A stretch of DNA of 64,000 bases from Aliiglaciecola sp. LCG003 (GTDB taxonomy: Bacteria > Pseudomonadota > Gammaproteobacteria > Enterobacterales > Alteromonadaceae): NCBI RefSeq assembly GCF_030316135.1, contig NZ_CP128185.1, positions 1,302,001-1,366,000 of the forward strand. The letters run 5' to 3'. A model generated the notes under the pieces. It was not told the DNA's origin, did no database searches, and worked only from the letters and a program-made list of their open reading frames with translations. A program made the translations under genes and the position numbers. Shown piece by piece: positions 1,192 through 30,134 of the stretch; within the stretch, counting starts at the first letter, position 1, and each line of letters starts with the position of its first letter.

Positions 1192-1272
1192 TCAGGACAC
1201 CCACTCTTACTCGCTCGTATTCTAATCAGGACACCCACTCTAACTCGCTCGTCAAGTCACCTCTTTTTATAA

Positions 1273-1347
1273 GGACACCCATTCTAATTCGCTCGAGAAA
1301 TCTGCTTCAAAATTCACATATATGAAATATTTAACGATGGCTGTCCA
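1273..1347. repeat. REPIN-like element, copy 1
   Basis: A 75-base unit bounded by GGACACCCAT on the left and ATGGCTGTCC(A) on the right. The ends are inverted repeats with a single mismatch, and the interior is AT-rich. Read outward-in on the minus strand the right end is GTGGACAGCCAT; the other strand of a related left end reads GTGGGTGTCC, so both arms carry a GTGG head like the GTRG head of known REP sequences. An identical copy lies at 1419-1493. Inferred to be mobilised by the transposase at 29084-30076. Confidence 0.7.
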
Positions 1348-1418
1348 CGTTATTTTGCTCTCGTATTCTAATCAGGACACCCACTCTAACTCGCTCGTCA
1401 AGTCACCTCTTTTTATAA

Positions 1419-1493
1419 GGACACCCATTCTAATTCGCTCGAGAAATCTGCTTCAAAATTCACATATATGAAATATTTAACGATGGCTGTCCA
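1419..1493. repeat. REPIN-like element, copy 2 (tandem duplicate of copy 1)
   Basis: Same 75-base element as 1273-1347, shifted by exactly 146 bases, with the same GGACACCCAT and ATGGCTGTCC ends. It was presumably copied with its surroundings by tandem duplication rather than inserted independently, because the flanking bases are duplicated as well. Confidence 0.7.
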
Positions 1494-1659
1494 CGTTATT
1501 TTGCGTTATTTTGGTCCACGTTATTTTGTGGTAACAACGCCAATGCTAATTAATGCTTATAAAGAGGAGTGGTAGAGGGAGGAACCGGAAGATGATGTGA
1601 TATTCGTTGCCTGACTAGCAATATCAAGGGTGACGGTGAAGTACCGCCACCTTTGGAGC

Positions 1660-2181
1660 TTAAAACGTCATTCGAATGCCAGCAGAGAAGACATCAGCCT
1701 CATCAAAGGATTCGTATATCGCTTCAATTGAAGTAGTTTCAGAAACCTTAAAGGTTGCACCACCACCAAAACCAAACTCCCAATCATCAGCAGTTTCACT
1801 AAACCCGCCTGCACTGGCTGTTGCTTCTAAGCGACCGTAGCTAGGTTGTAAGAAAACACCAAAGTCTTCTGTTACGTTGTATTGACCACGGATGCTAGCC
1901 ACAACGAGCGAATCGATTTCGACATTAACATTAACACCGTATATAGATACGTTATCGTCAGATATACCTGTACCCAGACGTAGGCTCGGCATAAACGTCA
2001 TTGAACCTGATTCGTAAGTATAACCAGCAGTAGCATAGATAACCCCTAAACTAATGTCAGCTCCATCTCCATCTTCCATGTAGTTTGCGTAGCCACCACC
2101 GAAGTTCCAGCCATTTGCGCTTGCCATAGAAGAGGCCGCTAATAAACTAGCGATTGCTAGCCCTTTGAAAATCTTATTCAT
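1660..2181 (-). CDS. Small outer-membrane beta-barrel protein
   Basis: 173-residue exported protein. An N-terminal signal peptide (Met-Asn-Lys, hydrophobic core to about residue 20, cleavage at AMA/ASA-type SASA-N near residue 22) is followed by alternating-hydrophobicity segments typical of beta strands. The chain ends in IRMTF, with the terminal Phe that the BAM machinery recognises in outer-membrane barrels. The length and pattern suit an 8-stranded OmpA/OmpW-like porin-family barrel. It has no close operon partner: repeat-rich DNA lies on both sides. A specific function cannot be assigned. Confidence 0.75.
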   Translation of the reverse strand: MNKIFKGLAIASLLAASSMASANGWNFGGGYANYMEDGDGADISLGVIYATAGYTYESGSMTFMPSLRLGTGISDDNVSIYGVNVNVEIDSLVVASIRGQYNVTEDFGVFLQPSYGRLEATASAGGFSETADDWEFGFGGGATFKVSETTSIEAIYESFDEADVFSAGIRMTF

Positions 2182-2671
2182 GAAATCCCTTATACTTAAG
2201 TAGTAAAAAGTGGCTACGTCGCCACTTGCGGGACTTTAATTAACCTGCTACCAAAAAGCAACTCAACCATAACAAAATAATGATTTAGTTTCCGTCTCAC
2301 TCCGACTTACTTTTTGACCGACTGCAAAAAGTAATGATGGCTGTCCACGTAATTCCCTTTTATCAGGACACCCACTCCCAGTTTCCCCTTTTCGCTTGAT
2401 ATTGTTTACGAAGATGTTTTACCAAGACACCCATCAGATTTATTTTGGCTATTCGGTCGACAAACATTTTATATTCAAAGTAATCATGGCTGTCCACCTA
2501 GCTATCCACCTATCGATGGACTACGAAGCCAAGCCCCTAACGGCCAATAAATATTGGAGTCAGTGATGAATGCTAGCCTATAAAATGACCTTTGACGGCA
2601 ACCTTCGCAACTGGCCGAAAACTGTCGTCATTTTCACTATAAAGCCTAATGGATAGCTAATTGGAGGGGAG
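2182..2671. repeat. Intergenic region with three REP-type motifs
   Basis: 490 bases without a gene. TGGCTGTCCA at 2338-2347 is followed by GGACACCCA at 2366-2374 (a short inverted pair, outward orientation). GACACCCAT at 2426-2434 pairs with ATGGCTGTCC at 2486-2495, giving a 70-odd-base element the same size as the one at 1273-1347. The bases up to about 2230 presumably carry the promoter of the outer-membrane protein gene. The rest shows nothing recognisable. Confidence 0.75.
2425..2496. repeat. REPIN-like element, copy 3
   Basis: A 72-base unit with left end AGACACCCAT and right end ATGGCTGTCCA, inverted with two mismatches. Its size matches the 75-base elements at 1273 and 1419 but the interior sequence differs. 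This suggests the ends are the conserved, functional part and that this is an independent, older insertion. Confidence 0.65.
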
Positions 2672-3292
2672 TTATCGAGCTTGCTTTTGGTGATTTCTAA
2701 AACGAAACTTATAATAAGCGCGAGTTACTAATAAGCCAGCAAAGCCTGCCAACATCATTAACGCTAGTAGTTGTTTATACAATTGCAGTTGATATTCATC
2801 ATGCAATAACATCACTTCTTTCTCTGCTAAAATCAAACGTAAATATCCGATTACTTTATCGTCATTTTTAATTTCGGCAATAAATACGAGTGGAATGTCT
2901 TGTGACAATAAAAAATGGCTTAAAATGGAGCTGTTTTGTTCGGTGCTATCAATAATCTTCCCTTGCTGATCAAACACGGCCGCTCCAGTTACGTAGGGGT
3001 CGTGCAGAAGGAGATTCAGTTGGTTTTTAATTTCATCATGGTCTTGTTGTCCCAATGGGATGGCAATCATTTTGGCCGCGTAGGATGATAAACTTTTGCC
3101 CATTTGGCCAGATTGTTTCTCGTACCAAGCTTGCGCTTGCCCTGTGTTCAGCAACCACAAATTAACGCAAAAAGCAGCCGTGGCTATAACCAAGACTAGG
3201 TTGATTATGCGTTTTAAAATAGAATAGTTACTCGGTCTGTTTGGGTGGCTCTCGAGTACGCCATTTTTTAACATATCCATGCAGGCAAACAT
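2672..3292 (-). CDS. ytjB: Smp/YtjB-family membrane protein
   Basis: 206-residue inner-membrane protein with an N-terminal transmembrane helix (about residues 29-48), a periplasmic domain of about 120 residues, and a second helix (about 173-190) followed by a basic tail. It sits back to back with serB, exactly as smp/ytjB does in E. coli, and the NxNLLLHDPYVTGAAVFDQQG region fits the family. Its biochemical role is unknown; in some bacteria the homologue (AhpA) is linked to peroxide resistance. The start could be the Met at residue 5 or 7 instead. The 3293-3484 gap holds the divergent promoters. Confidence 0.8.
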   Translation of the reverse strand: MFACMDMLKNGVLESHPNRPSNYSILKRIINLVLVIATAAFCVNLWLLNTGQAQAWYEKQSGQMGKSLSSYAAKMIAIPLGQQDHDEIKNQLNLLLHDPYVTGAAVFDQQGKIIDSTEQNSSILSHFLLSQDIPLVFIAEIKNDDKVIGYLRLILAEKEVMLLHDEYQLQLYKQLLALMMLAGFAGLLVTRAYYKFRFRNHQKQAR

Positions 3293-3484
3293 AAGTCATA
3301 ACAGTCAATTTGCCAAGTGATACTTGGTAGCATCAGGAGTTAAGTGCCAATTGCTGTAACAACTTACTTGGCTTAATTTTCTTTAACAGTGACTTTTTTA
3401 TTAACTTATACCAGACTGGATTTTGCAGAGTGGCAGGAATTGGGTAGAATCCCCCATCTTTAGCAAATACGAGCTGAGTTCGCC

Positions 3485-4495
3485 GTGCCAACCACCGATT
3501 TAACCATTTCTGAATATTGTTCCGCTGGGTATTTAACTAACTTGTGCCGCAGAGATGTGTGTTTTGCATTGCCGCAAGGTTATCAACTTGAATTGGTTGA
3601 GTCTGCTATTGATTTCGATGCTCACTTGATCATATTTGGCGAAGGCTTAAATGTTGAGACATTAGGGCAAGTTCAACGTCATTTAGCTGCACATATTGAG
3701 ATCATAAGTTATTCACGGGGTAATGAAATCAGTACCGGTTTCGCCATTGAAGCAAAAATTAAAATCTTGTCGCCCCAGCAACTTGCCAGTCAAATAGAGT
3801 TTACTGCAATAGCGACCCATGCAGAAATTGCGCTATTAACTAAGCGTCCAACGCTGGCCAAGCCCGGCCTGTTGGTCATGGATATGGATAGTACGGTCAT
3901 CGGTATTGAGTGTATTGATGAGATCGCTAAATTGGCAGGGGTCGGAGAGCAAGTTTCGGAAGTTACCGAGCTGGCTATGCAAGGTAAGTTAGATTTCGCA
4001 CAGAGTCTAATTAGTCGGGTGAAATGTTTAACCGGTGCTGATGAAGCAATTTTGCAAACCGTTAGAGATGGTTTACCGATCAATCCCGGAATAAGCCCGC
4101 TTTTACATCGGTTAAAGCAAGCAAATTGGAAACTTGCTATCGCATCGGGTGGGTTTACCTTTTTTGCCGATTACTTAAAAGACCGCTTAGGCTTGGACTT
4201 TTGTATATCGAACCAGTTGGAAATAAAGCAGCAACGACTAACCGGTAGGGTCTTAGGTGATATTGTTAATGCACAAACGAAAGCGGATACTTTGTTGCAA
4301 TTGGCTACACAGTACGAAATTGATATTGCTCAAACTATTGCCTTGGGCGATGGTGCAAATGACTTGGTGATGATGGGGCAGGCAGGTTTGGGCGTAGCCT
4401 ATCATGCAAAACCTATTGTGCGTCAACAAGCTGATGCGGCAGTGCGCTTTAGCAGTGCTGACACATTGCTAGCGTATCTAAGCACTGACTCTTAA
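3485..4495 (+). CDS. serB: Phosphoserine phosphatase
   Basis: 336-residue HAD-superfamily enzyme that performs the last step of serine synthesis, phosphoserine to serine. The DMDST motif (residues 133-137, nucleophile Asp133) and VIGIECIDEIA follow directly, SGGFT is motif II, and GDGANDLVMM (around 287-296) is motif IV. The N-terminal ~125 residues form the regulatory/ACT-like extension seen in gammaproteobacterial SerB. The start is GTG at 3485, matching expected length. Its divergent neighbour smp supports the call. trmJ follows after 66 bases. Confidence 0.96.
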   Translation: MPTTDLTISEYCSAGYLTNLCRRDVCFALPQGYQLELVESAIDFDAHLIIFGEGLNVETLGQVQRHLAAHIEIISYSRGNEISTGFAIEAKIKILSPQQLASQIEFTAIATHAEIALLTKRPTLAKPGLLVMDMDSTVIGIECIDEIAKLAGVGEQVSEVTELAMQGKLDFAQSLISRVKCLTGADEAILQTVRDGLPINPGISPLLHRLKQANWKLAIASGGFTFFADYLKDRLGLDFCISNQLEIKQQRLTGRVLGDIVNAQTKADTLLQLATQYEIDIAQTIALGDGANDLVMMGQAGLGVAYHAKPIVRQQADAAVRFSSADTLLAYLSTDS

Positions 4496-4561
4496 TACTA
4501 TAGGTACGCGGCTTTATGTTATCATACGTCGGTACACTCTTATCTTTTTAAAACAGTAGAA

Positions 4562-5320
4562 ATGTATACTATGACTGTTCAACAAACGCAAAAATCTGAT
4601 TTGGCCAATGTTCGCATTGTGCTTGTCAATACATCTCATACTGGCAACATTGGTTCCACCGCACGGGCGATGAAAACCATGGGCCTGAGCCAGCTTATTC
4701 TGGTTAACCCTGTTGATAAGCCTGATGGAAAAGCTAGTGCTCTGGCCGCAGGAGCAGGGGATGTGTTGGCTAATGCTAAAATTGTCGACACATTAGAGGA
4801 GGCTGTAGCTGACTGTGGTTTAGTCGTTGGCACCAGCGCCCGTTCTCGCACTTTATCCTGGCCGATGCTTGAGCCACGAAGCTGCGGTGAAAAGCTCGTT
4901 GCTGAGGTGCAAAAGTATCCTGTAGCCTTGGTTTTTGGCCGTGAAAATAACGGTTTAAGCAATGAAGAATTACAGCAATGTCATTTTCATGTGTGTATTC
5001 CAGCCAATCCTGAATACAGTTCTTTGAATTTGGCAGCCGCGGTACAAACGCTATGTTATGAGATTCGTATGGCTTGGTTACACCAAACTGAATTGTCCGA
5101 AGAGCAAAATGAGTACCCATTGGCAGAAGAACTTGAGCGTTTTTATAGTCATTTGGAACAAACCCTTTCAAAAACGAATTTCATCATTCCTAAACATCCG
5201 GGTATGGTGATGACTAAATTAAGGCGTTTATTCAATCGGGCTAGACCTGAAACCCAAGAGTTAAATATATTGCGTGGGATTTTGGCGTCCATTGATAAAT
5301 CGATCACAAGTAAAGATTAA
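4562..5320 (+). CDS. trmJ: tRNA (cytidine/uridine-32 2'-O)-methyltransferase TrmJ
   Basis: 252-residue SPOUT-class methyltransferase that 2'-O-methylates position 32 of the tRNA anticodon loop using S-adenosylmethionine. It has the N-terminal [25 protein letters not shown] motif region (split here: [18 protein letters not shown]), the knot signature [13 protein letters not shown] and [17 protein letters not shown]. The next gene, cysE, starts two bases after its stop, so they are likely cotranscribed. ATG at 4571 is an alternative start three codons in. Confidence 0.95.
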
Positions 5321-5322
5321 CT

Positions 5323-6132
5323 ATGTTTGAGAGAATGAAAGAAGATATTCAAAGTGTCTTCCATCGCGATCCCGCTGCCCGCACAACCTTAGAAGTGCTT
5401 TTGAATTATCCAGGTCTGCATGCTATCTGGATGCATCGGCTGGCGCACCGTCTTTGGCAGGCTAATTGGAAATTGCTAGGGCGCTGTATTTCTACATTCT
5501 CTCGTTGGATGACGGGAATTGAAATTCATCCCGGCGCCACCTTGGGCCGTAGGTTCTTTATTGATCATGGTATGGGGGTCGTGATCGGCGAAACCGCTGA
5601 AATTGGTAATGACGTTACCTTGTACCACGGAGTGACCCTTGGCGGCACAAGTTGGAATGGTGGTAAACGACATCCAACCTTAGAGGACAATGTTGTGGTA
5701 GGAGCGGGTGCTAAGGTACTTGGTCCAATTACTATGCATAAAGGCGCTAAAGTCGGCTCAAATTCGGTGGTGGTTAAAGACGTACCTGAAAATGCTACTG
5801 TGATAGGGATTCCCGGCCGAATTGTGATGCAAAAAGAACAAAAAGATCAGGATAAACATCAACATCGTGATAAAATCGCGCGCAAATATGGGTTTGACGC
5901 CTATGCGGTTGCGCCGGACAATCCAGATCCAGTCGCCAATGCTATTGGTATCATGTTAGATCATGTGCATCTTATCGATACCAAAGTTGAGGAAATGTGT
6001 AAATCTATCAACGCTATGGGCGGCGATGTGTGTGGAAAATCTTTGCCTTCAATCAATCTGGAAACCTTCCAGGATTCAGGCTTAGTAGATGACATGCAAA
6101 GGAACAGAGAAGCTTTTGACCCAAGCATTTGA
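5323..6132 (+). CDS. cysE: Serine O-acetyltransferase
   Basis: 269-residue left-handed beta-helix acetyltransferase. It makes O-acetylserine from serine and acetyl-CoA, the first step of cysteine synthesis. Hexapeptide repeats run from about residue 67 ([18 protein letters not shown]) to about 170, including the catalytic loop [15 protein letters not shown] and [18 protein letters not shown]. The C-terminal tail that normally carries feedback inhibition by cysteine is retained. It is tightly coupled to trmJ upstream and lies immediately before the ISC operon, for which cysteine is the sulfur donor. A palindrome follows 8 bases after the stop. Confidence 0.96.
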
Positions 6133-6140
6133 ACGGAGTT

Positions 6141-6184
6141 AACCCAGTAAAACAGTCAATAATACTTGACTGTTTTACTGGGTT
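6141..6184. repeat. 44-base perfect palindrome between cysE and iscR
   Basis: Bases 6141-6159 (AACCCAGTAAAACAGTCAA) and 6166-6184 are exact reverse complements with a six-base loop (TAATAC). The right arm TTGACTGTTTTACTGGGTT closely resembles the IscR operator copy that follows at 6187-6211. It may serve as a hairpin ending cysE transcription (though there is no U-run), as a second IscR binding site, or both. Confidence 0.75.
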
Positions 6185-6186
6185 AA

Positions 6187-6211
6187 ATACTTGACTGTTT
6201 TAGTAGGGTAT
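6187..6211 (+). promoter_or_regulatory. IscR type 1 operator in the iscR promoter
   Basis: The 25-base stretch starting ATACTTGACTGTTTTAG and ending GGGTAT matches the published type 1 IscR consensus (ATASYYGACTRWWWYAGTCRRSTAT) at 24 of 25 positions by eye; the mismatch is A for C at 6205. TTGACT at 6191-6196 could be a -35 element, so a bound [2Fe-2S]-IscR would block the promoter. This is the expected negative autoregulation of the isc operon. A weaker second copy lies just upstream at 6162-6186. Confidence 0.8.
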
Positions 6212-6248
6212 GTGACAATTACGCCTATCTTGTTTATGGGTGTTCTAT

Positions 6249-6737
6249 ATGAAACTTACTTCCAAAGGCCGATATGCCGTCACTGCTATGCTAGATGTTG
6301 CTTTGCATTCTCGCAGAGGCCCAGTGTCATTGGCAGATATCTCCGAGCGACAGGAAATTTCACTTTCATATCTTGAACAACTGTTTTCTCGCTTGAGAAA
6401 AGAGCAGTTGGTACAAAGTGTCCGTGGACCCGGTGGTGGTTATAAACTTGGACGTGCAGCCGAAGAAATTGCGGTTGGCGAGGTTATTAAAGCGGTAGAC
6501 GAATCCGTGGATGCAACACGTTGTCAGGGCAACTCAGATTGCCAAGGCGGGGAGCGTTGTCTTACCCATAGTCTATGGCAAGATTTGAGTGAACGGATCA
6601 GCCTTTTTCTAAATGGTATCACCTTAGGTGAACTTATGGCCCAACAAGACGTAAAAACAGTTGCCGGTCGACAAGACAGAAATAAACAACTTAATCATAT
6701 TGTTGCAAACGAAATTGAAATCAGTTTGCAACTGTAA
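6249..6737 (+). CDS. iscR: Iron-sulfur cluster regulator IscR
   Basis: 162 residues, the same length as E. coli IscR. Rrf2-family winged-helix regulator that senses iron-sulfur status and represses the isc operon when carrying a [2Fe-2S] cluster. The cluster ligands Cys92, Cys98 and Cys104 are in the canonical spacing ([16 protein letters not shown]), and the DNA-binding region [16 protein letters not shown] is intact. An upstream in-frame GTG at 6240 exists, but ATG at 6249 gives the conserved N terminus. iscS follows almost without a gap. Confidence 0.97.
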
Positions 6738-6749
6738 GTGGAGCAAGCA

Positions 6750-7973
6750 ATGAGCAATATTAATTTACCTATTTACCTTGACTATTCATCTACAACGCCG
6801 GTTGACCCGCGTGTTGCACAGAAGATGATAGAATGCTTAACGCTAGAAGGGAATTTCGGTAATCCGGCATCTAGGTCACATAAATTTGGCTGGCATGCAG
6901 AAGAAGCAGTAGATATTGCCCGGAACCAAGTGGCTGAATTGGTTAACGCTGACCCACGTGAAATCGTATTTACCTCGGGTGCAACAGAATCGAATAACTT
7001 GGCAATTAAAGGTGCTGCGCACTTTTATGCTAAAAAGGGTAAGCATATTATTACCCTTAAAACTGAACACAAAGCAGTACTTGACGCTTGTCGTCAACTA
7101 GAGCGTGAAGGTTTTGAAGTGACATACATGGATCCTAAGCCAAATGGCTTGCTGGATTTAGCTGAATTTGAAGACAATCTTCGACCTGATACTGTGCTTG
7201 TAAGTATCATGCATGTGAATAATGAAATCGGCGTGATCCAAGATATTGCTGCGATTGGCGAGATATGTCGTGATAAGAAAGTGTTGTTTCATGTTGATGC
7301 TGCTCAGAGTACCGGTAAAGTAGAAATCGATTTACAGACGCTTAAAGTCGATATGATGTCTTTTTCAGGCCATAAAACCTATGGTCCAAAAGGGATAGGC
7401 GCATTATATGTACGTCGTAAACCTCGTGTTCGCTTAGAAGCGCAAATGCACGGTGGCGGACATGAGCGTGGTATGCGTTCTGGTACCTTGGCAACCCATC
7501 AAATCGTTGGTATGGGTGAAGCCTTTAGAATTGCAAAAGAAGAAATGGCCGAAGAAAACGCACGTATTTTAAAATTGCGTGATCGTCTTTGGAATGGCCT
7601 AAAAGATATGGAAGAAGTTTATTTAAACGGTGATCTTGAGCACCGTGTGGCAGCAAATCTTAATATTAGCTTCGCTTATGTTGAAGGTGAGTCGCTGATA
7701 ATGGCACTGAAAGATATGGCGGTTTCGTCAGGCTCTGCTTGTACTTCAGCGAGCCTTGAACCGTCTTATGTGCTGCGAGCGTTAGGCCTAAATGATGAGC
7801 TTGCACACAGTTCAATTCGTTTCACTATCGGTCGTTTTACCACCGAAGAAGAAATCGACCATGTCATCAAAGTAGTGCTAAACGCGATTGGTAAATTACG
7901 CGAAATGTCACCGCTTTGGGATATGTTTAAAGATGGTGTGGACCTGAGCAAAGTAGAATGGGTTCACCACTAG
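6750..7973 (+). CDS. iscS: Cysteine desulfurase IscS
   Basis: 407-residue PLP enzyme that removes sulfur from cysteine and passes it as persulfide to IscU and to tRNA-thiolation proteins. The PLP lysine lies in [12 protein letters not shown] and the persulfide-forming cysteine is Cys331 in [14 protein letters not shown]. The start is ATG at 6750, preceded by GTGGAG at good spacing; an in-frame GTG at 6738 is less likely. It is the second gene of the isc operon. Confidence 0.97.
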
Positions 7974-8060
7974 TTGACAGGTTAAATGCTTAACAAGCAT
8001 TGCTAGAATTGAGTATTTTTGAGTTTAACGCGCCTTGGCGCAATGAAAGAGGTAAGTAAC

Positions 8061-8447
8061 ATGGCTTACAGTGAAAAAGTTATCGATCATTATGAAAACC
8101 CTCGTAACGTAGGTGGTTTTGATAAGAATGATCCAAGTATCGCTACTGGCATGGTAGGTGCACCTGCGTGCGGTGACGTAATGAAACTGCAATTGAAAGT
8201 GGGTGAAAACGGTATTATCGAAGATGCTAAATTCAAAACTTATGGTTGTGGTTCTGCTATTGCTTCTAGCTCATTGGTTACTGAATGGGTTAAAGGCAAA
8301 ACCCTAGACGAAGCCGTCACCATTAAGAATACCGATATTGCTGAAGAGTTAGCATTGCCACCAGTGAAAATTCACTGTTCGATCTTGGCTGAAGATGCAA
8401 TCAAAGCAGCAGTAGAAGACTACAAGTCAAAACACAGCAACGCTTAA
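8061..8447 (+). CDS. iscU: Iron-sulfur cluster scaffold IscU
   Basis: 128 residues, exactly the E. coli length. Assembles [2Fe-2S] clusters from IscS-derived sulfur and passes them on with HscA/HscB help. The three cluster cysteines are in [10 protein letters not shown] (Cys37), [11 protein letters not shown] (Cys63) and [11 protein letters not shown] (Cys106), and the HscA recognition motif LPPVK is just before the last. An upstream in-frame start at 8019 would add a non-conserved extension; ATG at 8061 follows the AGAGGTAA ribosome site. Confidence 0.97.
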
Positions 8448-8467
8448 GTATCGACGAGGAGCCAGTT

Positions 8468-8791
8468 TTGGGAATTAAAGTATCTGATGCAGCCGCACAA
8501 CGAGCACGTAGCTTTCTTACCAATCGCGGTTCGGGACTGGGTTTGCGTCTAGGGGTAAAAACCACGGGATGCTCAGGTTTGGCTTACGTATTGGAATTTG
8601 TTGATGAAGCCAATCCTGATGATCAGGTTTTTGAAGACAATGGTATAAAAATCATTATTGATGGTAAGAGTTTGGTTTACCTTGATGGCACCGAGTTGGA
8701 CTTTGCAAAAGAAGGCCTGAATGAAGGCTTTTTATTCAACAACCCTAATGCTAATGGGGAATGTGGTTGCGGTGAAAGTTTTAATGTTTAA
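8468..8791 (+). CDS. iscA: A-type iron-sulfur carrier IscA
   Basis: 107 residues, as in E. coli. A-type carrier with the three conserved cysteines in TTGCSGLAY (Cys36) and the C-terminal GECGCGESF pair. It transfers clusters to apo-targets and helps form [4Fe-4S] clusters. The start is an unusual TTG at 8468, preceded by GAGGAG; no ATG or GTG is available near the conserved N terminus. Fourth gene of the isc operon, 20 bases after iscU. Confidence 0.96.
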
Positions 8792-8843
8792 CTTTTGCCG
8801 TCAATCCAGTTGCCTTCTTCACAACAAAATTTAAAGACTCTTG

Positions 8844-9371: not shown

Positions 9372-9435
9372 AGCCAATCAGCGGCAAGGTAAGAGACAAG
9401 ATAAGCGTATAAATAATGACAGGTAATATTTGAAT

Positions 9436-11301: not shown

Positions 11302-11321
11302 CGATTTAAGAGGATCATAAA

Positions 11322-11660: not shown

Positions 11661-11687
11661 TTTTTAAGCTTCTTGCTAGCAAATTCT

Positions 11688-11713: not shown

Positions 11714-11737
11714 TTATCTAATCGTTCTCTCTTATGA

Positions 11738-11868
11738 GGACACCCACCGTATTTAGCATGGACAGCCAACGTATTTAGCATGGACAGCCACCGTGTATTT
11801 TGCATGGACACCCACCGTATTTAGCATTATTTTGCATGGACACCCACCGTATTTAGCATGGACAGCCA
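11738..11868. repeat. Cluster of six alternating REP-type head motifs
   Basis: GGACACCCA at 11738-11746, TGGACAGCCA at 11759-11768 and 11781-11790, TGGACACCCA at 11805-11814 and 11837-11846, and TGGACAGCCA at 11859-11868 all point the same way. They are separated by short AT-rich spacers such as CCGTATTTAGCA. Unlike the 75-base elements, these are direct repeats mixing the two motif variants, spaced 21-32 bases. The remainder of 11661-12020 holds the isc terminator and the lipoprotein gene's promoter region. Confidence 0.85.
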
Positions 11869-18533: not shown

Positions 18534-18548
18534 TTAAAGGTAAGTGTA

Positions 18549-19667: not shown

Positions 19668-19698
19668 AAAACCAGCTTAAGCTTGTATCAATGCAATC

Positions 19699-19727
19699 AA
19701 AGCCCCTATAATACGGGGCTTTTTTTA
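19699..19727 (+). terminator. Terminator after ispG
   Basis: AAAGCCCC and GGGGCTTT form an eight-base stem with a short loop and a run of seven T. Confidence 0.92.
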
Positions 19728-19769
19728 AACGCCAATGTGGCGAAAAAACGATTTTAGAGAACTCAATAC

Positions 19770-21047: not shown

Positions 21048-21095
21048 AAGATTTTACGCGCCCTGATTGGCGTGTGTTGTACGAGGAAAAATACA

Positions 21096-21710: not shown

Positions 21711-22956
21711 TATGTTTTCAACACTAAGCTGGACCAAAGGGCTAGTGCTGATTGCAGTCTTGTCTTTAGGCGGTTGTTCAACTATATCAGGCTGGTTTAC
21801 CGATGATGAAGAACTTGAAATTCGCACCCTAAAACCAATTGAAGCGCAATTTGAAGCGAAACGAATCTGGAGCCAGGATTTATCCGGTGGGGTAGATTTT
21901 TATTACTCACGATTACGTCCTGCTTTAGCTTACGATAAGGTTTATGCCGCCAGTCGACAAGGCACAGTTGCTGCTTTTGATGAAACTAGCGGTAAAGAAA
22001 TCTGGAAGCGTGACTTGGCTACCTATCCCAATGATAGTTGGTTTAGCTTCATCAGTAATATATGGTCATCAGGCATTTCAGCTAAAATCTCCGGTGGCTT
22101 GACCATCAGTTACGAAACCGTTTTTTTCGGTACTGAAGACGGCGAGGTTTTTGCTTTGGATGCCAATACGGGTGAAACCAAGTGGCGGGTGAAAGTTCGC
22201 GGCGAAGTGATAGCCCCGCCAGCAGTAGATGAGCAAGTTGTGGTGGTTAACACAGGCTCTGGTACCTTGTTTGCGTTAAATGCAACCACAGGTGAGCAAC
22301 TTTGGAGTTATGATTCCGACGTGCCAGCCCTAAGCTTACGCGGTATTTCAACCCCTGTAGCGGTTAATGGTGGCGCAATCGTAGGTACTGCGACAGGTAA
22401 ATTAGTGGTAAATATTCTAGCCAGCGGTCAAACCGCTTGGGAAGAAACCATTTCTGCCCCCTCTGGCGCGACAGAATTAGAACGTATTGTTGATATCGAT
22501 AGTGAGCCAGTCGTGTTGGCCGGTATTATTTATGTGATCTCATTTGACGGTACGCTAGCATCAGTGGAATTGCGTACCGGTCGAATTATCTGGAAACGAG
22601 AATACAATTCGTATCGCCGGATTGGCGTGGCGGGTAATAGCCTTTATGTGACTGATGTAAACAGTAATATGTACAGTATTGATCGCCGAAATGGGGTAGA
22701 GCTGTGGAGTCAAAGTGCCCTTAAAAAGCGTAACTTGACCGCTCCTGAGCCCATTGGAGATTATGTCGTGGTAGGCGACAAATATGGTTACCTACATTGG
22801 ATGAATCAATCTGATGGACAAATTGTAGCTCGTATGGATATTGGTGGTGACGACGAGGATGAAGGTATCTATGTTGAGCCAGTGACCAACGGCAATAAAT
22901 TATATGCACAGACCCGTGATGGCGAATTGGTAGCCATTGAGGTACCTGCTCTTTAG
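21703..22956 (+). CDS. bamB: Outer-membrane assembly lipoprotein BamB
   Basis: About 417-residue lipoprotein with a signal peptide and lipobox LGGC, then an eight-bladed beta-propeller of PQQ-like repeats (FALNATTGEQLWSYD, TGETKWRVKVRGEV, GVELWSQSALKKRNL). It is part of the BAM complex that folds outer-membrane proteins. ATG at 21703 overlaps the yfgM stop; ATG at 21712 is an equally possible start. A terminator separates it from der. Confidence 0.95.
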   Translation: MGNMFSTLSWTKGLVLIAVLSLGGCSTISGWFTDDEELEIRTLKPIEAQFEAKRIWSQDLSGGVDFYYSRLRPALAYDKVYAASRQGTVAAFDETSGKEIWKRDLATYPNDSWFSFISNIWSSGISAKISGGLTISYETVFFGTEDGEVFALDANTGETKWRVKVRGEVIAPPAVDEQVVVVNTGSGTLFALNATTGEQLWSYDSDVPALSLRGISTPVAVNGGAIVGTATGKLVVNILASGQTAWEETISAPSGATELERIVDIDSEPVVLAGIIYVISFDGTLASVELRTGRIIWKREYNSYRRIGVAGNSLYVTDVNSNMYSIDRRNGVELWSQSALKKRNLTAPEPIGDYVVVGDKYGYLHWMNQSDGQIVARMDIGGDDEDEGIYVEPVTNGNKLYAQTRDGELVAIEVPAL

Positions 22957-23015
22957 TCTAGATTAAATAGCCTGATTTTGGTTAGGTTATAGTCAAAATA
23001 GACGCTATATTTAAA

Positions 23016-23060
23016 GACGGCTCAACGGTCGATAAGAACGTTTGAGCCGTCCTTGTTTTT
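23016..23060 (+). terminator. Terminator after bamB
   Basis: GACGGCTCAA and TTGAGCCGTC form a ten-base perfect stem around a 16-base loop, followed by CTTGTTTTT. Confidence 0.85.
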
Positions 23061-23074
23061 GATGGAAAAAATAT

Positions 23075-24520
23075 ATGTTACCTGTTGTTGCCCTTGTCGG
23101 CAGACCTAATGTCGGCAAATCTACCTTGTTCAACCGTTTAACGAATACTCGTGACGCCTTGGTGGCGGACTATCCTGGACTGACCCGTGACCGTAAATAT
23201 GGTCAGGCAAAGTATGAGGGGCTGCAATTTATCGTTGTTGATACTGGTGGGATAAGCGGTGATGAACAAGGCATCGATGCGGAAATGGCGGAACAGTCGT
23301 TATTGGCCATAGATGAAGCCGATGTGGTTCTCTTTCTGGTTGATGCTCGCGCAGGGTTAACACCTGATGATATGGCCATCGCTAACCATTTACGTAAGCA
23401 AGAAAAAACCGTTTATCTGGTGGCAAACAAAGTTGATGGGATTGATGGTGACAGCGAAAGTGCAGAATTCTATTCGCTTGGATTGGGCGAAATCTCGCAA
23501 ATAGCTGCCACCCATGGACGAGGCGTAACCCAGTTATTGGAACGCTCAATGCAGCCACTAGAAGCTTTATTTCCGGATATGCATATTCCCGAAGCGGTGC
23601 GTAATGATGATGATGAAGACGCTGATGCCCAGCTTGAAAGGCTGCAGAGTCTACCGATTAAACTTGCCATAGTCGGTAAACCCAATGTGGGTAAATCTAC
23701 CCTGACCAATCGTATCCTTGGGGAAGAGCGGGTAGTTGTATTCGATATGCCAGGCACCACTCGCGATAGTATTTTCATTCCGATGGAGCGCGATGGTCGT
23801 GAGTACGTCCTGATTGATACAGCAGGTGTGCGCAAACGTAAAAGAGTGGCAGATGCGGTTGAGAAATTCTCAATTATCAAAACCCTACAAGCGATCGAAG
23901 AAGCCAACGTAGTATTGCTGTGTATTGATGCCCGTGAAGGGATCAGTGAGCAAGATTTGAGTTTGCTAGGCTTCGTGTTAAATGCCGGTCGTTCTTTGGT
24001 CATTGCGGTGAATAAATGGGATGGCTTAAATAAAGATGTTAAAGAAGAGATTAAGCGCGAACTCGATCGTCGTTTAGGCTTTGTTGATTTCGCCCGTATC
24101 CACTTTATCTCTGCTTTGCATGGTACTGGCGTAGGTCACTTATTCGAGTCGGTGCAGGAAGCCTATGCTTCTGCCACTAAACGGATCAATACCTCAATGT
24201 TGACTCGTATCATGGAGATGGCACAAGATGATCACCAACCACCAATGGTTCGCAGTCGTAGAGTGAAGATGAAATACGCCCATGCGGGCGGTTATAACCC
24301 GCCGGTTATCATTATTCACGGTAACCAAGTTGAAGATTTACCGGATGCTTACAAGCGTTATATGATGAATTACTACCGTAAGTCGCTGCAAACAATGGGC
24401 ACGCCAATTCGAATAGTATTCCGTGAAGGCGCTAACCCATTTGAAGGCAAGGTGAATAAACTTACGTTATCTCAAGAGCGTAAACGTAAGCGTTTGATGT
24501 CACACCATAAGAGAAAGTAG
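23075..24520 (+). CDS. der: Ribosome-associated GTPase Der (EngA)
   Basis: 481-residue GTPase with two consecutive G domains, required for 50S subunit assembly. G1 motifs are [11 protein letters not shown] (near residue 9) and [11 protein letters not shown] (about 207); DTGG/DTAG G3 and NKVD/NKWD G4 motifs are seen in both. A KH-like C-terminal domain ends in a very basic tail. Last gene of the block; it converges with the lipase gene. Confidence 0.98.
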
Positions 24521-24575
24521 CCATTATAGCAGGCGCGGATACAGTCACTTGCTGTCTGTACCCGCAGTTGCTGCG

Positions 24576-25271
24576 TTATTGAATCAGATCTAACTGTTTT
24601 TCTGCGGTATCAGTTTGTAGGCCAAAGTGTCCTAGCGTGTACGTGTACGAATTATCTTCATTCCAAACCCTGCTACTGTGTAACCCCCCCACGCTGCAAA
24701 CCCCTGTGGAGCAAACAACTTGATCGATATTACTCTTAATCGAATACACCTTACTACCAAGTGGCACCCCATAGAGTCCATCTAAGAATGGGCTTTGCAC
24801 CGACAGTCCATAATAACCGCAAGTAGAATTCCACACATTAAACGGATACACACCACAGCTCCATAATCCTCTAAATGCCCCTGCGATACCGACAAATGTA
24901 TCTACATTGGCGGATGCATTTAACTTACTGATTTGCTGTGCCGCCAGAGTCGCGCCCATCGAGTGGCCGATTACGTCGATTTTGCCAGTACATGAATTAG
25001 CGATGGCATCACTTATGGCCTGACGCACGGGGGTCTCTTCACTTCCGCTATGATTGTTGCAGGTAGCGCAATATTTAGAGCCCCAGTTAGGACGGTAAAT
25101 ATCTGAACTTGTATAGCCATTGCTTAGAAGTAAGTTGTAAGTATTATCCCAACTGCTAGGAGTTGCCGTATTGCCATGAACTAAAACGACAGCGTCTTTA
25201 CAGCCACTTGCATAAGCGTTTATGGATATTGATAGGAATGCAAGCAAAGTGGTAGTGATTATTTTCAACAT
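24576..25271 (-). CDS. Secreted alpha/beta-hydrolase, lipase class 2-like
   Basis: 231 residues with a signal peptide (about 1-21, cleavage after AYA-S). The oxyanion region VVLVHGN is near residue 30 and the nucleophile elbow IGHSMGATLAAQQ carries the catalytic Ser (about 104). A histidine in LGHFGLQ near the C terminus could complete the triad. Several paired cysteines (KYCATCNN, WSCGV, NSTCGYY, VVCSTGVCS) suggest disulfides in an extracellular enzyme. The fold suits small bacterial lipases (EstA/LipA-like). No operon partner; substrate unknown. Confidence 0.78.
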   Translation of the reverse strand: MLKIITTTLLAFLSISINAYASGCKDAVVLVHGNTATPSSWDNTYNLLLSNGYTSSDIYRPNWGSKYCATCNNHSGSEETPVRQAISDAIANSCTGKIDVIGHSMGATLAAQQISKLNASANVDTFVGIAGAFRGLWSCGVYPFNVWNSTCGYYGLSVQSPFLDGLYGVPLGSKVYSIKSNIDQVVCSTGVCSVGGLHSSRVWNEDNSYTYTLGHFGLQTDTAEKQLDLIQ

Positions 25272-26017
25272 AATTTAATGCTCTTTTTTATTGGAGCAAT
25301 AAAATTAGTTGCGAAACGCTAATAAAGACATAGTACTTTAGTACAGCGGCTAGACTTAGCCCCAATTTAGAGGGCCATTTAGTTAAGGCCGTTAACCGTA
25401 TTTTCTAGGCTGGCTAGTCATTGAGTACAATTCGTGATTCTGTAGAGAGCAAATTAGCACCGTGAAATATCATTAGCAGTGCGGCTTTTGAGCCCAGGGA
25501 GTATCTGGTGGAGATTTGTCTACGCTTCTATATTTCAACGACTGGTAAGCCGCGATGAGGCTTATTTATAGCACAGTGTAGATACCTCACAGAAAACCGA
25601 GATAGCGGTTTGAAAAATAGATCACGTCAGGTTAGGATTGGATTCCTAAGGTTCTGCTCTGGGTGCAAGCAGCATAGGTCGTCTTTTTGCTTTACACACG
25701 TTTGGTAGGCTTGGGTAGTTTATCGAAGATGTCGGCAGCGGATATTGTTATGATCATTGTGATTGGATCACGGTTTGCTCAGACGGGCAATTTAGGCCCG
25801 TTGTTTCTAGCTGGAATGGAAATTTAATTTGTGGCATACACAACTTTAGCTAGGTGACAGATGTAGATTATTGTCGTTAGTGTAGGGCTAATCTCGGCAA
25901 GTCTCCCATTTGTGCAACCAGGCCAAAATTACTGCTATTTGTTTTACAGGGTTTGCTGGGACGGGGTGATAGATACTAGAGTAATACTTATCAAGAAAAG
26001 TTATAGAAGGGTGGAAA
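25272..26017. other. Gene-poor stretch without recognised content
   Basis: 746 bases with no reading frame that looks protein-like. A short hairpin (ACGGGC/GCCCGT at about 25785-25803) resembles a weak terminator but has no gene to end. It may be decayed coding DNA; I recognise no family in any frame. Confidence 0.5.
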
Positions 26018-26563
26018 TTGTCTAATTTTAACAATAGGTTGGCAACACAAGAAGATATTCCTGAGATTACTGCACTGATGCAACTCTCGATTTTGGAAAA
26101 TATGAAGTCGTTCCTTACTGCTAAGGAGATTGAAGCGGCCCAGCAAACAATGGGAGTAGACGTGACCCTAATTGAGGACAATACCTACTTCGTTATTGAA
26201 AGCATAGAGCATGAAAAAACGGTTATGGTTGGCTGTGGCGGATGGGGAAAACGTCGAACCTTGTATGGCGGTGCGCACACCCTAGGTCGAGACGATTCTT
26301 ATAGCGATCCAGCAGTAGATGCCGCTAGAGTTCGAGCCATGTATACCCATCCATCTTGGGTGCGTTGTGGTGTGGGGACAATGCTGCTTGAGCTCAGTGA
26401 AGCAGCAGCCCGAGATGCTGGATTCAAATTAATCGAGCTTGGCGCAACCATCCCCGGCGAACCTTTGTATCTTGCCCGAGGCTACAAGGAGGTCAGTAGA
26501 AACTCGCACTTGACTGCTGACGGGGTTAATAGTGTAGTGATAAAGATGCAAAAACGATTGTAA
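26018..26563 (+). CDS. GNAT-family N-acetyltransferase
   Basis: 181-residue acetyltransferase. The N-terminal region (RLATQEDIPEITALMQLSI) fits the start of the GNAT fold, and VRAMYTHPSWVRCGVGTMLLELSE contains the acetyl-CoA pyrophosphate-binding motif (R-x-x-G-x-G/A, here RCGVGT). The chain ends with the typical YLARGYKEV beta-strand. The start is TTG at 26018 with GGGTGG upstream, so the exact N terminus is uncertain. It stands alone in a gene-poor accessory region; substrate unknown. Confidence 0.8.
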   Translation: MSNFNNRLATQEDIPEITALMQLSILENMKSFLTAKEIEAAQQTMGVDVTLIEDNTYFVIESIEHEKTVMVGCGGWGKRRTLYGGAHTLGRDDSYSDPAVDAARVRAMYTHPSWVRCGVGTMLLELSEAAARDAGFKLIELGATIPGEPLYLARGYKEVSRNSHLTADGVNSVVIKMQKRL

Positions 26564-26792
26564 AGGGTTACAAAACGAAGGAACTGTCTTGCTGCTGGCG
26601 ACTTTTGGGTCTGTGGTGCTGTTTCTCATGATTGTAGAAGGAATAGGGTTTAATGTCTTATCTATTCTGCTTTCAGTTCTTTGTGATTGATTCTGCTCGT
26701 ACCTAAGCTTCAATAATATAAAGTGATATATCTATTATCATCTGACTTAAATTTTGCAAAATGATCAGTTTGTTTAGCTCATGGAATAAGCA

Positions 26793-27187
26793 ATGAAAAA
26801 AGAACATATAGGAAGCGTTTACAGGGTATTTGGAATCACTCGCTAAGCTTTTTGGCAAAATAGAATCTAGTGTTGATGGTGACACCTCAATTTTAGAGGC
26901 AAGGTTAATAGATGATATGTTGCCGCTTTATACTCAAGCTGAAATCGCGGCGAGTTTTGCATTGCGGACAAGCTGTCCTATCGTGAATGTCCTCCTCGGA
27001 TCTTTTGTACATTGGCAGCATTTCCGTTATGGCGGGTTCGGTTAAAGTAAGCTTAACTACTTCAGCGTTTTTAAATAACTTTGCGCGGGCGAATTTCTTT
27101 TTCCATTTGAGTGTGGTTTACGTCATTGCACGATCTAGGGGGATCTCCATCACTAAGGGGGATTATGATGGATTTCCATTTGAATAA
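26793..27187 (+). pseudogene. Decayed DUF1993-type gene
   Basis: Pieces of a DUF1993-like protein occur in successive frames. MKKEHIGSV reads from ATG 26793; FTGYLESLAKLFGKI and ARLIDDMLPLYTQAEIAASFALRTSCPIV read in another frame from about 26818 to 26980; and FLNNFARANFFFHLSVVYVIA with RGISITKGDYDGF reads in a third frame to 27187. Together they follow the order of the family (N-terminal helix, LAPDM-like helix, PNFFFH C-terminal helix). At least two frame changes and a scrambled middle around 26985-27050 make it non-functional. The family function is unknown. Confidence 0.7.
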
Positions 27188-27574
27188 TAAGTCACTTCCG
27201 TTTGGCGCAGCGCATCATTTGCAAGTGCTTGAGTTTTTCCGTGAGACTGTGACATACATTCTTGAGTGAACACGTGGAATATCTTTGTGCTGTAGTGCAA
27301 GTGCGTATTAATATTGTATTTATCAAAAAAGTTATTAAACCAATATTGACTGGTTGCTCACTTTGATCCAGTTTGCTTGTTAAGTTGTAAGGATTAAAGG
27401 TCTCAAAATCTTGGCTAATTCATGTTAGATTATGAAGATTAGATTATGAATGAAAGATTATGAAGACACCCATGCAAGCAAGATGAGATTATGAATGAGA
27501 TTATGAAGACACCCATGCAAGCATGCCAGAAATTCCCCAAGGGAAAACATAGTGTTTAAAGATTCGGAGATTAA
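27188..27574. repeat. Gap with a 25-base direct repeat containing GACACCCA
   Basis: The 25-base unit beginning GATTATGAAGACACCC occurs at 27456-27480 and 27499-27523, and shorter GATTATGAA pieces lie between and before. The GACACCCA core links it to the REP-type family elsewhere in the window. The rest of this stretch is without recognisable features apart from the presumed nhaA promoter and ribosome site. Confidence 0.75.
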
Positions 27575-28765
27575 ATGAACAACCAACAAAACTCTTCCAT
27601 CACGCGCTTTTTACAGCTGGAATCGGCGGGAGGGATCCTGTTGATAATAGCTGCAGCCGTCGCCATTATTCTGGCTAATACACCACTCGACCGTTTCTAT
27701 CAGTTACTACTTTCAACACCAGTTGAAGTTAAGATCGGTAGCCTAGAAATAGCTAAGCCTTTGCTGCTATGGATTAACGATGGCCTGATGGCAATATTCT
27801 TTTTCTTAGTGGGGCTTGAGTTAAAGCGAGAATTGATCGAAGGAGAACTCTCCGATAAACGCAATATCGTTTTGCCGGGTATTGGCGCTGTAGGGGGTAT
27901 GCTAGTTCCAGCACTAATTTATGTATATTTCAATGCCGGTGATAGTGTTGCTATGAATGGTTGGGCCATCCCTGCTGCTACGGACATTGCATTTGCACTG
28001 GGCGTTCTAATGTTGCTAGGATCACGGGTACCTGTTGCGCTAAAAATATTCCTTACTTCATTAGCTATTTTTGATGATATCGGTGCTATCGTCATCATCG
28101 CTTTCTTCTATACCTCGAACATATCTGCAACTGCGTTAGTTGTAGCGGCCACGTGTATTGCCATCCTGTTTACCTTGAATAAGAAACACGTTACTTCGAA
28201 GAGCGCCTACATTTTAGTAGGTGTTATTATGTGGATAGCAACACTCAAATCTGGTGTTCACGCAACACTTGCCGGTGTGGTGTTGGCAATGTTTATACCT
28301 ATGCGCGCGAAAGCTGACCCAAATATATCACCGCTCAAAAGTATGGAGCACGATTTACACTCCGTGGTTGCCTTTTTTGTACTCCCCGTTTTTGCCTTCG
28401 CTAATGCTGGTATAAGTATGACAGGTGTAGGGGTGGAGCAACTGTTGCATCCAGTGCCTGTGGGTATCGCGCTTGGATTGTTCCTTGGAAAGCAAATAGG
28501 CATATTTGGCCTGTGTTGGTTATGCATAAAATTAAAAGTGGCTAGGTTACCAGAAGGTATGAGTTGGTCGAGTTTGTACGGTACCTCCGCACTGTGTGGA
28601 ATTGGTTTCACTATGAGTTTATTTGTAGGCTCACTGGCCTTTGAAGAAACCGGCGTTAACCTTTTATTTGATGAGAGATTAGGAATTATTGTTGGATCCC
28701 TGGCCTCCGGTATAGTTGGTTTTATCGTGCTGAAAATCAGTTTGAACTCAACTAGAACAGCTTAA
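27575..28765 (+). CDS. nhaA: Na+/H+ antiporter NhaA
   Basis: 396-residue inner-membrane antiporter exchanging internal Na+ or Li+ for external protons, for pH and salt homeostasis. The ion-binding aspartates fall in LAIFDDIGAIV (Asp167, Asp168) and ATDIAFALGVL (Asp137), and FFLVGLELKREL and GTSALCGIGFTMSLF are family hallmarks. About 12 membrane segments are evident. No nhaR regulator gene is adjacent. REP-type repeats lie on both sides. Confidence 0.96.
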   Translation: MNNQQNSSITRFLQLESAGGILLIIAAAVAIILANTPLDRFYQLLLSTPVEVKIGSLEIAKPLLLWINDGLMAIFFFLVGLELKRELIEGELSDKRNIVLPGIGAVGGMLVPALIYVYFNAGDSVAMNGWAIPAATDIAFALGVLMLLGSRVPVALKIFLTSLAIFDDIGAIVIIAFFYTSNISATALVVAATCIAILFTLNKKHVTSKSAYILVGVIMWIATLKSGVHATLAGVVLAMFIPMRAKADPNISPLKSMEHDLHSVVAFFVLPVFAFANAGISMTGVGVEQLLHPVPVGIALGLFLGKQIGIFGLCWLCIKLKVARLPEGMSWSSLYGTSALCGIGFTMSLFVGSLAFEETGVNLLFDERLGIIVGSLASGIVGFIVLKISLNSTRTA

Positions 28766-29083
28766 GGGACTAGTCGCTAAGACGTGTCGAATTAGATGAG
28801 ATGTCTTAGCGCTAAAGCTATAAACTATTTAACTATGGACATGCATCCTCATCATGGGCCATCCTCATCATGGACAGGCATATTAAATATCTTCTTGAAG
28901 AAGCTTGATTCTCCCATAAGCGTTGTATTTTAAGTTGGGATATCCATAAATTATGACTTTTTGCGCCAAATCAGTCTGAGTTAGCCAGCATTAAAGCTAA
29001 AGTTATGGTTGATACGAGTTTTAATTCAGCAGGAGCTCTCAAGCTCTGCAGTTGATTTTGGGAGTGAAAGATTTGCGTTGTGC
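28766..29083. repeat. Gap between nhaA and the transposase gene, with hairpin and short repeats
   Basis: CGCTAAGAC (28775-28783) and GTCTTAGCG (28803-28811) form a nine-base stem just after nhaA, without a T-run. CATCCTCATCATGG is repeated directly at 28844-28857 and 28860-28873, next to TGGACATGCA and TGGACAGGCA, which resemble degenerate forms of the TGGACAGCCA motif. These could mark the far end of the transposase-bearing element. Confidence 0.6.
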
Positions 29084-30076
29084 TTAGGGAAAAACGGCTA
29101 TGCCTAGGATACGTTTTCGCTTAGTGTGATGTTTATAGCGATTCATGGATTGGGGCTGACCAGCCGCGACACTAAAGCAGCTTTCAAAACATTGGCTTAG
29201 TGTTAGCCAATGGCTTTCATCTATACCTAAACGTCGCAAAATGGGAGACACAGTGATGTCAATCGTACCTGATTTTTGTGGGGCAATACACCGCCCGGTT
29301 GTCTCAACTAATTGAATGTAGTCGATTAAATCAAAATTCAATGCTGAAGGTTTGTTATTAGCATGATTTCCCACAAAAGGCATCAGTGCTCTAGGTTGAT
29401 AGCCTTTTTTTAAACTGAGTATACGGCGTTGAATACTTGTGTGTTTAGATGTTTCAGGGAGCGTAGCCATGTTGACACGAATAGGGTTTAAATCCACATA
29501 AACCATACAGGCGGCTAACGCGTGTTCATCTAAGAGTGCCTGTGATTTAAACCGACCCTCCCAGAAATGACCGGTGCAGTTATCCTCAGCATTGGCTTGG
29601 CGTGCAATAGGCTCGTTGAGCTCACGCATAAACCAACTGATATCGAACAAACGTCGCCGGTATATTGCAATTGTCGAGTCCAAAGTTATTTGTTGAGCAT
29701 TGTCTGTGGCTTCGCTGTCGTCATTCATAAATTGTTGTACGAGTAACGTGGTCTTATGCAATTTTTGCCAACGAATAATTACTTCTTGGTCACTAAGTTG
29801 CTTGGCTTCATCTTGATTCACATGCAATACAACATGGGTGTGATTACTCATCACCGCATATGCACAAACATCAATACAAAATACCCTTGATAAAAAGAGC
29901 AAACGGTCTTCAACCCATTGGCGGCGGTATTCATAGCTTTTGCCTGTGAGCATATCTTCCCCACACAAAAATGCACGACGAACACAGCGAGAAACGCAGT
30001 GGTAAAAGGGCGTATCAATCAAACTGATTTGGCGCTTTCTAGCTAGAGGCATTTGGTAGTCCTTGTCCAATTCCAT
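29084..30076 (-). CDS. REP-associated tyrosine transposase (RAYT), Y1/HUH family
   Basis: 330-residue protein of the IS200-like Y1 transposase superfamily. The metal-binding HUH motif is His79-Thr-His81 in MSNHTHVVLH, and GHFWEGRFKS (169-178) and YVDLNPIR (193-200) are the usual RAYT blocks. Such proteins cut single-stranded DNA at REP hairpins; here a GTGGGTGTCC head lies about 50 bases upstream of the gene (30125-30134), and many copies occur in the window. Met at residue 9 (30052) is an alternative start. The frame is intact, so the enzyme may be active. There is no sign of standard IS ends or target duplication. Confidence 0.85.
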   Translation of the reverse strand: MELDKDYQMPLARKRQISLIDTPFYHCVSRCVRRAFLCGEDMLTGKSYEYRRQWVEDRLLFLSRVFCIDVCAYAVMSNHTHVVLHVNQDEAKQLSDQEVIIRWQKLHKTTLLVQQFMNDDSEATDNAQQITLDSTIAIYRRRLFDISWFMRELNEPIARQANAEDNCTGHFWEGRFKSQALLDEHALAACMVYVDLNPIRVNMATLPETSKHTSIQRRILSLKKGYQPRALMPFVGNHANNKPSALNFDLIDYIQLVETTGRCIAPQKSGTIDITVSPILRRLGIDESHWLTLSQCFESCFSVAAGQPQSMNRYKHHTKRKRILGIAVFP

Positions 30077-30124
30077 TATTACAAGGTTAACGTAGTTCCT
30101 TTTTTTTCCAAGTCTAGTTTTAAA

Positions 30125-30134
30125 GTGGGTGTCC
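30125..30134 (+). repeat. REP-type head upstream of the transposase gene
   Basis: GTGGGTGTCC, the minus-strand form of the GGACACCCAC motif found at 1195, 1229, 2366 and 11738. It lies 49 bases before the start of the transposase gene, the place where RAYT genes typically carry one of their cognate REPs. Confidence 0.7.

Follow-up and report, generated by a model that had tools for sequence, protein, structure and literature searches.

A transposase-bearing insertion sequence of Aliiglaciecola and the tandem repeats of host flank and element tip at its junctions

What are the short motifs repeated between the genes of Aliiglaciecola sp. LCG003, and what does the transposase encoded among them do to the DNA around it? 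We analyzed a window of 64,000 nucleotides of this genome (G000, one contig of 4.41 Mb, NZ_CP128185.1; the window is bases 1302001-1366000). An earlier note on the window had read the motifs as repetitive extragenic palindromic (REP) sequences, paired as REPINs (doublets of inverted REPs), and the transposase as their REP-associated tyrosine transposase (RAYT). The comparisons presented here show that the motifs form the inverted termini of an insertion sequence that carries the transposase as its sole gene, and of a few short derivatives of 62-74 bp. Beside many copies of this element, host flank and element tip are repeated together in junction arrays, and these arrays are shown to change much faster than insertions move.

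The window contains 8 copies of GTGGGTGTCC against 0.05 expected (at least 8 in none of 100 shuffles) and 4 of GTGGACAGCC against 0.07; genome-wide, 137 sites match TGGSTGTCC, compared with 51 for its reversed control. The excess over chance is therefore borne out. Counted as GGACACCCA and TGGACAGCCA on either strand, the motif has 17 exact copies at four loci (seven at 1195-1504, three at 2338-2496, six at 11738-11868, and one at 30125-30134), all intergenic, as had been claimed, relative to open reading frames (ORFs) of at least 100 amino acids. At least 15 copies at six loci had been announced, but the other two loci hold variants of the exact motif: AGACACCCA at 27464-27515, and TGGACATGCA and TGGACAGGCA at 28836-28880. 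TGG[G/C]TGTC and its complement GACA[C/G]CCA read as one motif, and the motif of the family is GACA[C/G][C/G]CA, read inward from both ends of the insertion sequence. The proposal that two head variants serve as opposite arms of one element proved to be an artefact of aligning motifs in opposite senses. GTGGACAGCC (minus-strand starts at 1339, 1485, 2339, and 2488) and GTGGGTGTCC (1195, 1229, 1375, and 2366) lie on the same, minus, strand wherever both occur and are therefore not inverted by the note's own definition. The inverted relation found in the window is GACACCCA ... TGGCTGTC, a single motif with a G/C difference.

The autonomous element of the window comprises the following features.
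28860..30131, minus strand: autonomous element (insertion sequence), with both ends in or beside motif copies and a 99.6% identical stretch in a second copy at G000:C1:3332509
29084..30076, minus strand: HUH/Y1 tyrosine transposase of the TnpAY1 subclass 2.3 type, 330 amino acids, with N78-H79-T80-H81, W172-E173, and Y193-VDLNP
30125..30134, minus strand: left (5') end motif, GGACACCCAC on the gene strand
28836..28880, minus strand: right (3') end and junction repeats, consisting of TGCCTGTCC, the host flank ATGATGAGGATG twice, and a second, variant TGTCC copy

A motif upstream of the transposase ORF is indeed present, at 48 bases. Over 1,273 bp, the element matches the copy at 3332509 with 99.6% identity; the match breaks off in GGACACCCAC on one side, where the other copy has an IS110-family element, and just past TGCCTGTCC on the other. 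Likewise, the DNA shared by near-identical copies of the transposase gene reaches only about to such motifs. We drew logos of 102 left and 94 right ends; since the ends had been selected by the motif core, that core is necessarily invariant in them. Outside the motif the two logos also match: positions −6 and −5 are A or T (88-94%), and position −1 is a purine. Because near-identical copies part at the motifs and the two logos agree outward, the element ends are evidently terminal inverted repeats. The GTGG head attributed to the motifs is not fixed: it would require C after GACASSCA, a position that is C in 51% of left ends, T in 39%, A in 9%, and G in 1%. Folding of the ends did not exceed that of shuffled sequence, with mean z of 0.02 and −0.17 for the two strands of 89 left ends and of −0.25 and −0.20 for 93 right ends; 4-8% of ends fell under −2.

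Among the 53 close motif pairs of this genome (at most 250 bp apart), 26 are left-left, 16 right-right, 7 left-right, and 4 right-left. This census covered 60 stretches, four from the window and 56 around 83 out-of-window sites among 100 sites listed of the 137, plus six further GTGGGTGTCC sites. Direct pairs thus dominate (42 of 53), and of the expected inverted neighbors only a few miniature pairs were recovered: six of the seven left-right pairs lie 53-65 nt apart, start to start, and form miniature elements of 62-74 bp. The three inverted pairs reported in the window do exist, with end-to-end spacings of 74, 74, and 71 bp, but only two are independent, because the first two are mutual copies inside a 146-bp tandem duplication. 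The earlier note missed the tandem duplication of host flank and element tip.
1273..1346, plus strand: miniature (non-autonomous) element, GGACACCCA ... TGGCTGTCC, 74 bp, with a second copy at 1419-1492 through the tandem duplication
2425..2495, plus strand: miniature element, AGACACCCA ... TGGCTGTCC, 71 bp
2338-2346 (right) and 2366-2374 (left), no strand assigned: extra motifs next to the 71-bp miniature element

Duplications of flank and tip lie beside many copies of the element. At one locus (L016), short and longer pieces of element tip come one after another behind the host word TATTCTTATCA, and the whole element comes last. The window contains the following repeats of this kind.
1195..1520, no strand assigned: junction array with left motifs at 1195, 1229, 1273, 1375, and 1419 and right motifs at 1338 and 1484, including the 146-bp tandem duplication; the flank TTCTAATCA precedes GGACACCCA at three left motifs, and TGGCTGTCC with the flank CGTTATTTTG is repeated at the right motifs
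11738..11868, plus strand: orphan array, made up of six left motifs, in the space separating a 2Fe-2S gene from a phytase-like gene; its commonest unit is 22 nt, the flank CGTATTTAGCAT plus GGACA[C/G]CCA[A/C]
27464..27515, plus strand: two left motifs AGACACCCA with the repeated flank GATTATGAA, upstream of a Na+/H+ antiporter gene

We searched 115 loci drawn from the own genome, named genomes, megaplasmids, and a congeneric genome (G003). At least one flank-plus-tip duplication was found in 58 of them (35 left, 41 right). Flank and tip are shared by 155 of the 569 motif pairs within a locus, compared with 697 of 198,195 pairs between loci. Five locus pairs represent the same insertion in two close genomes; after each was reduced to one locus, duplications remained in 53 of 110 insertions and shared flank and tip in 141 of 522 pairs, from several genera. 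Exact direct repeats of at least 14 bp occur upstream in 37 of 95 regions (2 of 189 control windows) and downstream in 34 of 92 (4 of 166 control windows). The 14-mer across the left junction is repeated at 26 of 124 loci, versus 7 of 6,900 random anchors. The units have a characteristic geometry. Their outer boundary lies at 9-13 nt in 104 of the 155 pairs (101 of the 141 non-redundant ones), and the element tip they share varies from 4 to 190 nt; in 16 perfect tandems, the outer value is 11.6 ± 1.8 nt and the inner one 15.8 ± 8.3 nt. Most units start at a nearly fixed position, 9-13 nt outside GACA, and run for a variable distance into the element, from a few nt to over 100, at left and right ends and in several genera.

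Two congeneric genomes, G002 and G003, about 98-99% identical in the flanks of the element, allowed us to follow the arrays in place. Twelve copies were retrieved from G003 and ten were checked in G002. The insertion is common to both genomes in all ten cases, and the junction arrays differ in nine; the tenth (L206/L250) shows no indel of at least 5 bp at its left end, the only end covered. For four insertions (L204/L216, L207/L248, L209/L240, and L210/L253), a single end was compared, as the G002 sequence ends within the element. Indels of at least 5 bp were counted for nine locus pairs (L210/L253, found later, being left out): the 2,538 alignment columns near motifs contain 18 and the 31,849 remaining columns 3, so that indels are about 75 times denser near motifs. 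Clean differences of a single unit measure 28 nt with an outer value of 11 (L210/L253), 16 nt with 10 (L212/L220), and 27 nt with 8-9 (L208/L217), and by our reading of the alignments match the expected geometry. A unit of L209 holds about 126 nt of the element, reaching into the transposase gene; its relative L240 has a single junction where L209 has units with several different inner ends. Similarly, one insertion (site E) is present in three genomes, one of them just about 85% identical, with different arrays.

The number of motifs follows the number of transposase genes in the genus, as would be expected if the RAYT-like protein is the cognate enzyme of the dispersed family; in this respect the earlier note was right. 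Nine Aliiglaciecola genomes gave the following transposase matches and motif/control counts.
G000: 19 matches, 271/100
G002: 21 matches, 242/95
G003: 18 matches, 275/98
G006: 12 matches, 314/94
G004: 5 matches, 160/95
G001: 4 matches, 139/82
G005 (59% complete): 3 matches, 64/50
G007: 1 match, 149/137
G008: 0 matches, 49/116

The motif/control ratio correlates with transposase copy number in these nine genomes (Spearman 0.82, p 0.007), in 59 genomes (0.55), and in the 50 outside the genus (0.40), kinship being ignored throughout. G008, the sole genome of the genus with no copy, has fewer motifs (49) than reversed controls (116). The expectation that relatives lacking the transposase also lack the motif thus holds within the genus; outside it, even genomes rich in copies show scarcely any excess of the exact motif. 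Among 20 loci from six other genera, some carry GACACTCA, GCCACCCA, or TGCCTGGC instead of the motif, and flank-plus-tip repeats are found again in five (L255, L262, L263, L268, and L273) and neither feature in others.

How could such units arise? To account for the ends, the miniatures, and the junction duplications together, we consider a nick-extend-reseal scheme probable, if by no wide measure. It builds on inverted ends, near-identical copies at different places, near-fixed outer and variable inner boundaries, and change in place between close relatives; from these we infer a nick, an extension, and a resealing. The transposase would recognize GACASSCA, nick the strand about 11 nt (about one helical turn) outside the motif, and stay bound to the 5' end through its tyrosine. 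A DNA polymerase would extend the free 3' end inward across flank and tip, and the transposase would then reverse its reaction, joining the 5' end to the extended 3' end. Each round would add one unit, which would begin at the nick and end where synthesis stopped, and since each unit brings another recognition site, arrays would grow. As described in the part of PMC8266576 used here, cleavage by TnpAREP gives a 5'-phosphotyrosine and a free 3'-OH, and the enzyme joins a 3'-OH to that 5' end. By analogy, the scheme would need only activities known for this related enzyme, plus a polymerase. The more specific proposal, that the HUH transposase writes host tandem repeats without transposing, by a nick about 11 nt outside the motif, polymerase run-on, and resealing, is tentative, a little short of an even chance.

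Several observations weigh against the nick-extend-reseal scheme. No nick was observed, and no cleavage-site sequence was seen at the outer boundary. By our test, 57 of the 115 loci have no such duplication. The window shows 10-13 nt of shared flank in only 5 of 14 close pairs (those sharing 10 nt include 1196/1230 and 27465/27508), and the other nine share 0-5 nt. The outer value is 6-7 nt in 26 of the 155 pairs and more than 17 in 11, a spread to which nested units and the cut-off of 6 contribute. At the seam of 4 of the 16 perfect tandems there is a 4-nt overlap, above our chance expectation, which leaves a possible role for end-joining or slippage. Near motifs, the density of substitutions is raised as well (2.6% vs. 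1.2%), and part of the array difference may therefore reflect alignment or general instability. One of the two genomes compared is a 40-contig draft, and gain and loss of units are mostly not polarized. We found no unambiguous empty site that would show target duplication and transposition cut points. Outside the genus, ends are often diverged, and the median motif/control ratio is 0.88 in 12 genomes with at least five copies against 0.77 in 23 with none.

The strongest rival is ordinary replication slippage or unequal recombination, which would expand and contract adjacent motif copies with no part for the transposase in the duplications. Tandem repeats are inherently unstable, the whole-unit differences between G002 and G003 look as slippage would make them, and the seam overlaps and denser substitutions just mentioned fit as well. 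However, plain slippage predicts no fixed boundary and leaves unexplained a shared outer start with differing inner ends in one array, as in L209 beside the single junction of L240, and the recurrence of an outer start about 11 nt away from the motif across unrelated flanks and across genera; nor do random upstream anchors often show such repeats (the 7 of 6,900 above). We regard slippage alone as unlikely, although a mixed origin, with the enzyme initiating and slippage expanding, is quite possible. Staggered nicks on both strands around an end, followed by filling and joining of the 5' overhangs, would duplicate the intervening DNA and likewise set one side of the unit by a specific nick, and the 4-nt seam overlaps would suit an end-joining step. 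Yet the second nick would have to fall at depths of about 5 to over 100 nt within the element, and unit length is more variable than a stagger would give; such paired nicking seems to us improbable. A REP/REPIN family with its cognate RAYT has very little left to recommend it: the RAYT-like fold, the intergenic copies, the few inverted miniature pairs, and the parallel numbers of motif and transposase in the genus speak for it, but the ends form no palindromic hairpin, the GTRG foot is not conserved, direct neighbors predominate, the transposase is multicopy with near-identical copies, and the published survey, in its part on subclass 2.3 consulted here, reports no REPs (PMC6006769).

The enzyme can be placed among known systems. 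It has the fold and catalytic residues of HUH/Y1 nucleases, and H79, H81, W172, E173, Y193, N197, and P198 are invariant in 30 aligned transposase sequences; its true start may be at MPLARK. TnpAY1 subclass 2.3, as characterized in the portion of Quentin et al. 2018 (PMC6006769) drawn on, has YVDLNP and WE motifs, about 325 amino acids, a long C-terminal part, Alteromonadales hosts, and several copies per genome. The window transposase shares all of these traits. It matches 19 sites in its own genome, several pairs being 97-99.6% identical over about 1.2 kb, and occurs in 36 of 60 genomes (the own one included); the named loci carrying it are mostly from Alteromonadales, with Marinomonas and Photobacterium in addition. 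Of 10 aligned own-genome copies, 8 have NHTH as their HUH motif (the other two NHIH and NHVH), whereas the commonest form in the published description is NHYH; that description gives the middle residue of class 2 as variable. The defined ends, miniature derivatives, near-identical copies, and junction arrays also set the element apart from subclass 2.3 as published there.

The family resembles the REPIN/RAYT (TnpAREP) system in that its enzyme is a tyrosine HUH protein with that fold, its short cognate motif is dispersed, and there are small elements with inverted ends. It differs in the features given above and in the tandem duplication of host flank with the motif; REP/REPIN systems are defined, in the text of PMC8049555 we relied on, by a single-copy, vertically inherited RAYT. 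Many insertions are all the same common to close species. TIRYTs/TIRtrons, in the account taken from PMC3733652, have a RAYT-like gene between terminal inverted repeats and further repeats singly, in dimers, or in groups elsewhere. The element resembles them in both respects, but its motif is GACASSCA and not the GGGGWSAS of many (a subset) of their repeats, and flank-plus-tip tandem units do not appear in that account. Unlike IS200/IS605 elements (TnpA of IS608 and ISDra2), which according to the section of PMC6006769 cited have subterminal hairpins and Y---Q, it has unstructured inverted repeat ends and YVDLNP.

Some observations concern individual copies of the element. Just outside the left end of the window element, host DNA at 30140-30168 is a hairpin (AAAGACTAG...CTAGTCTTT) that may terminate the endonuclease gene; between icd and ilvI of Pseudoalteromonas, the element likewise stands right after a terminator-like hairpin. 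In the own genome, genes 95-99% identical (L013 vs. L014; L016-L019 and L026) have partly or wholly different 3' tails, and yet the right motif keeps a distance of about 200-240 nt to the stop codon, for which tail exchange and a length constraint are options. In L012, a decayed older end (about 1360-1500) seemingly lies inside the present left end, as though the element had moved by way of the outer motif of an earlier junction array, carrying former host flank. From L160 to L163 (G000 983-989 kb), motif repeats spaced 229 bp and about 1.69 kb accompany a miniature element, bounded by an IS110-family end in L160. In L024 and L026 (2684-2688 kb), a transposase copy is interrupted by about 2.6 kb of DNA whose edge carries GGGATCAC-type repeats.

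The motif is itself a target. Elements of the IS110/IS1111 family (Transposase_20 and DEDD_Tnp_IS110 in L010), which we take to be of the bridge-RNA type, are inserted inside it, between GACA and CCCA.
G000, 3331 kb (L200, L010) and 1282-1283 kb (L174, L175): both ends seen
G000, 687 kb (L155), and beside TGGGTG in L160 and L194: one end seen
Two Pseudoalteromonas records: a different member with like ends, both seen in L138 and one in L251

ISPpu9 is described as inserted into REP sequences in the part of PMC8450116 consulted. The parallel suggests that IS110-type elements may adopt whichever short repeat abounds in a lineage.

Subclass 2.3, common in marine gammaproteobacteria and left without associated repeats in the survey as cited above, now has DNA ends and a testable activity. 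The proposed scheme offers a concrete route from non-repeated DNA to short tandem repeats in bacteria, by a nick at a specific site, one end staying fixed while the other runs. With differences at nine of ten insertions between two close relatives, the arrays could be used to tell strains apart and to read out transposase activity; those of the window are intergenic, where they could alter expression. If the scheme is true, an insertion would be the birthplace of a minisatellite of host flank and element tip, the structure of the array would be a running log of nicking events, and tandem repeats would be made from unique sequence by a natural, enzyme-driven process.

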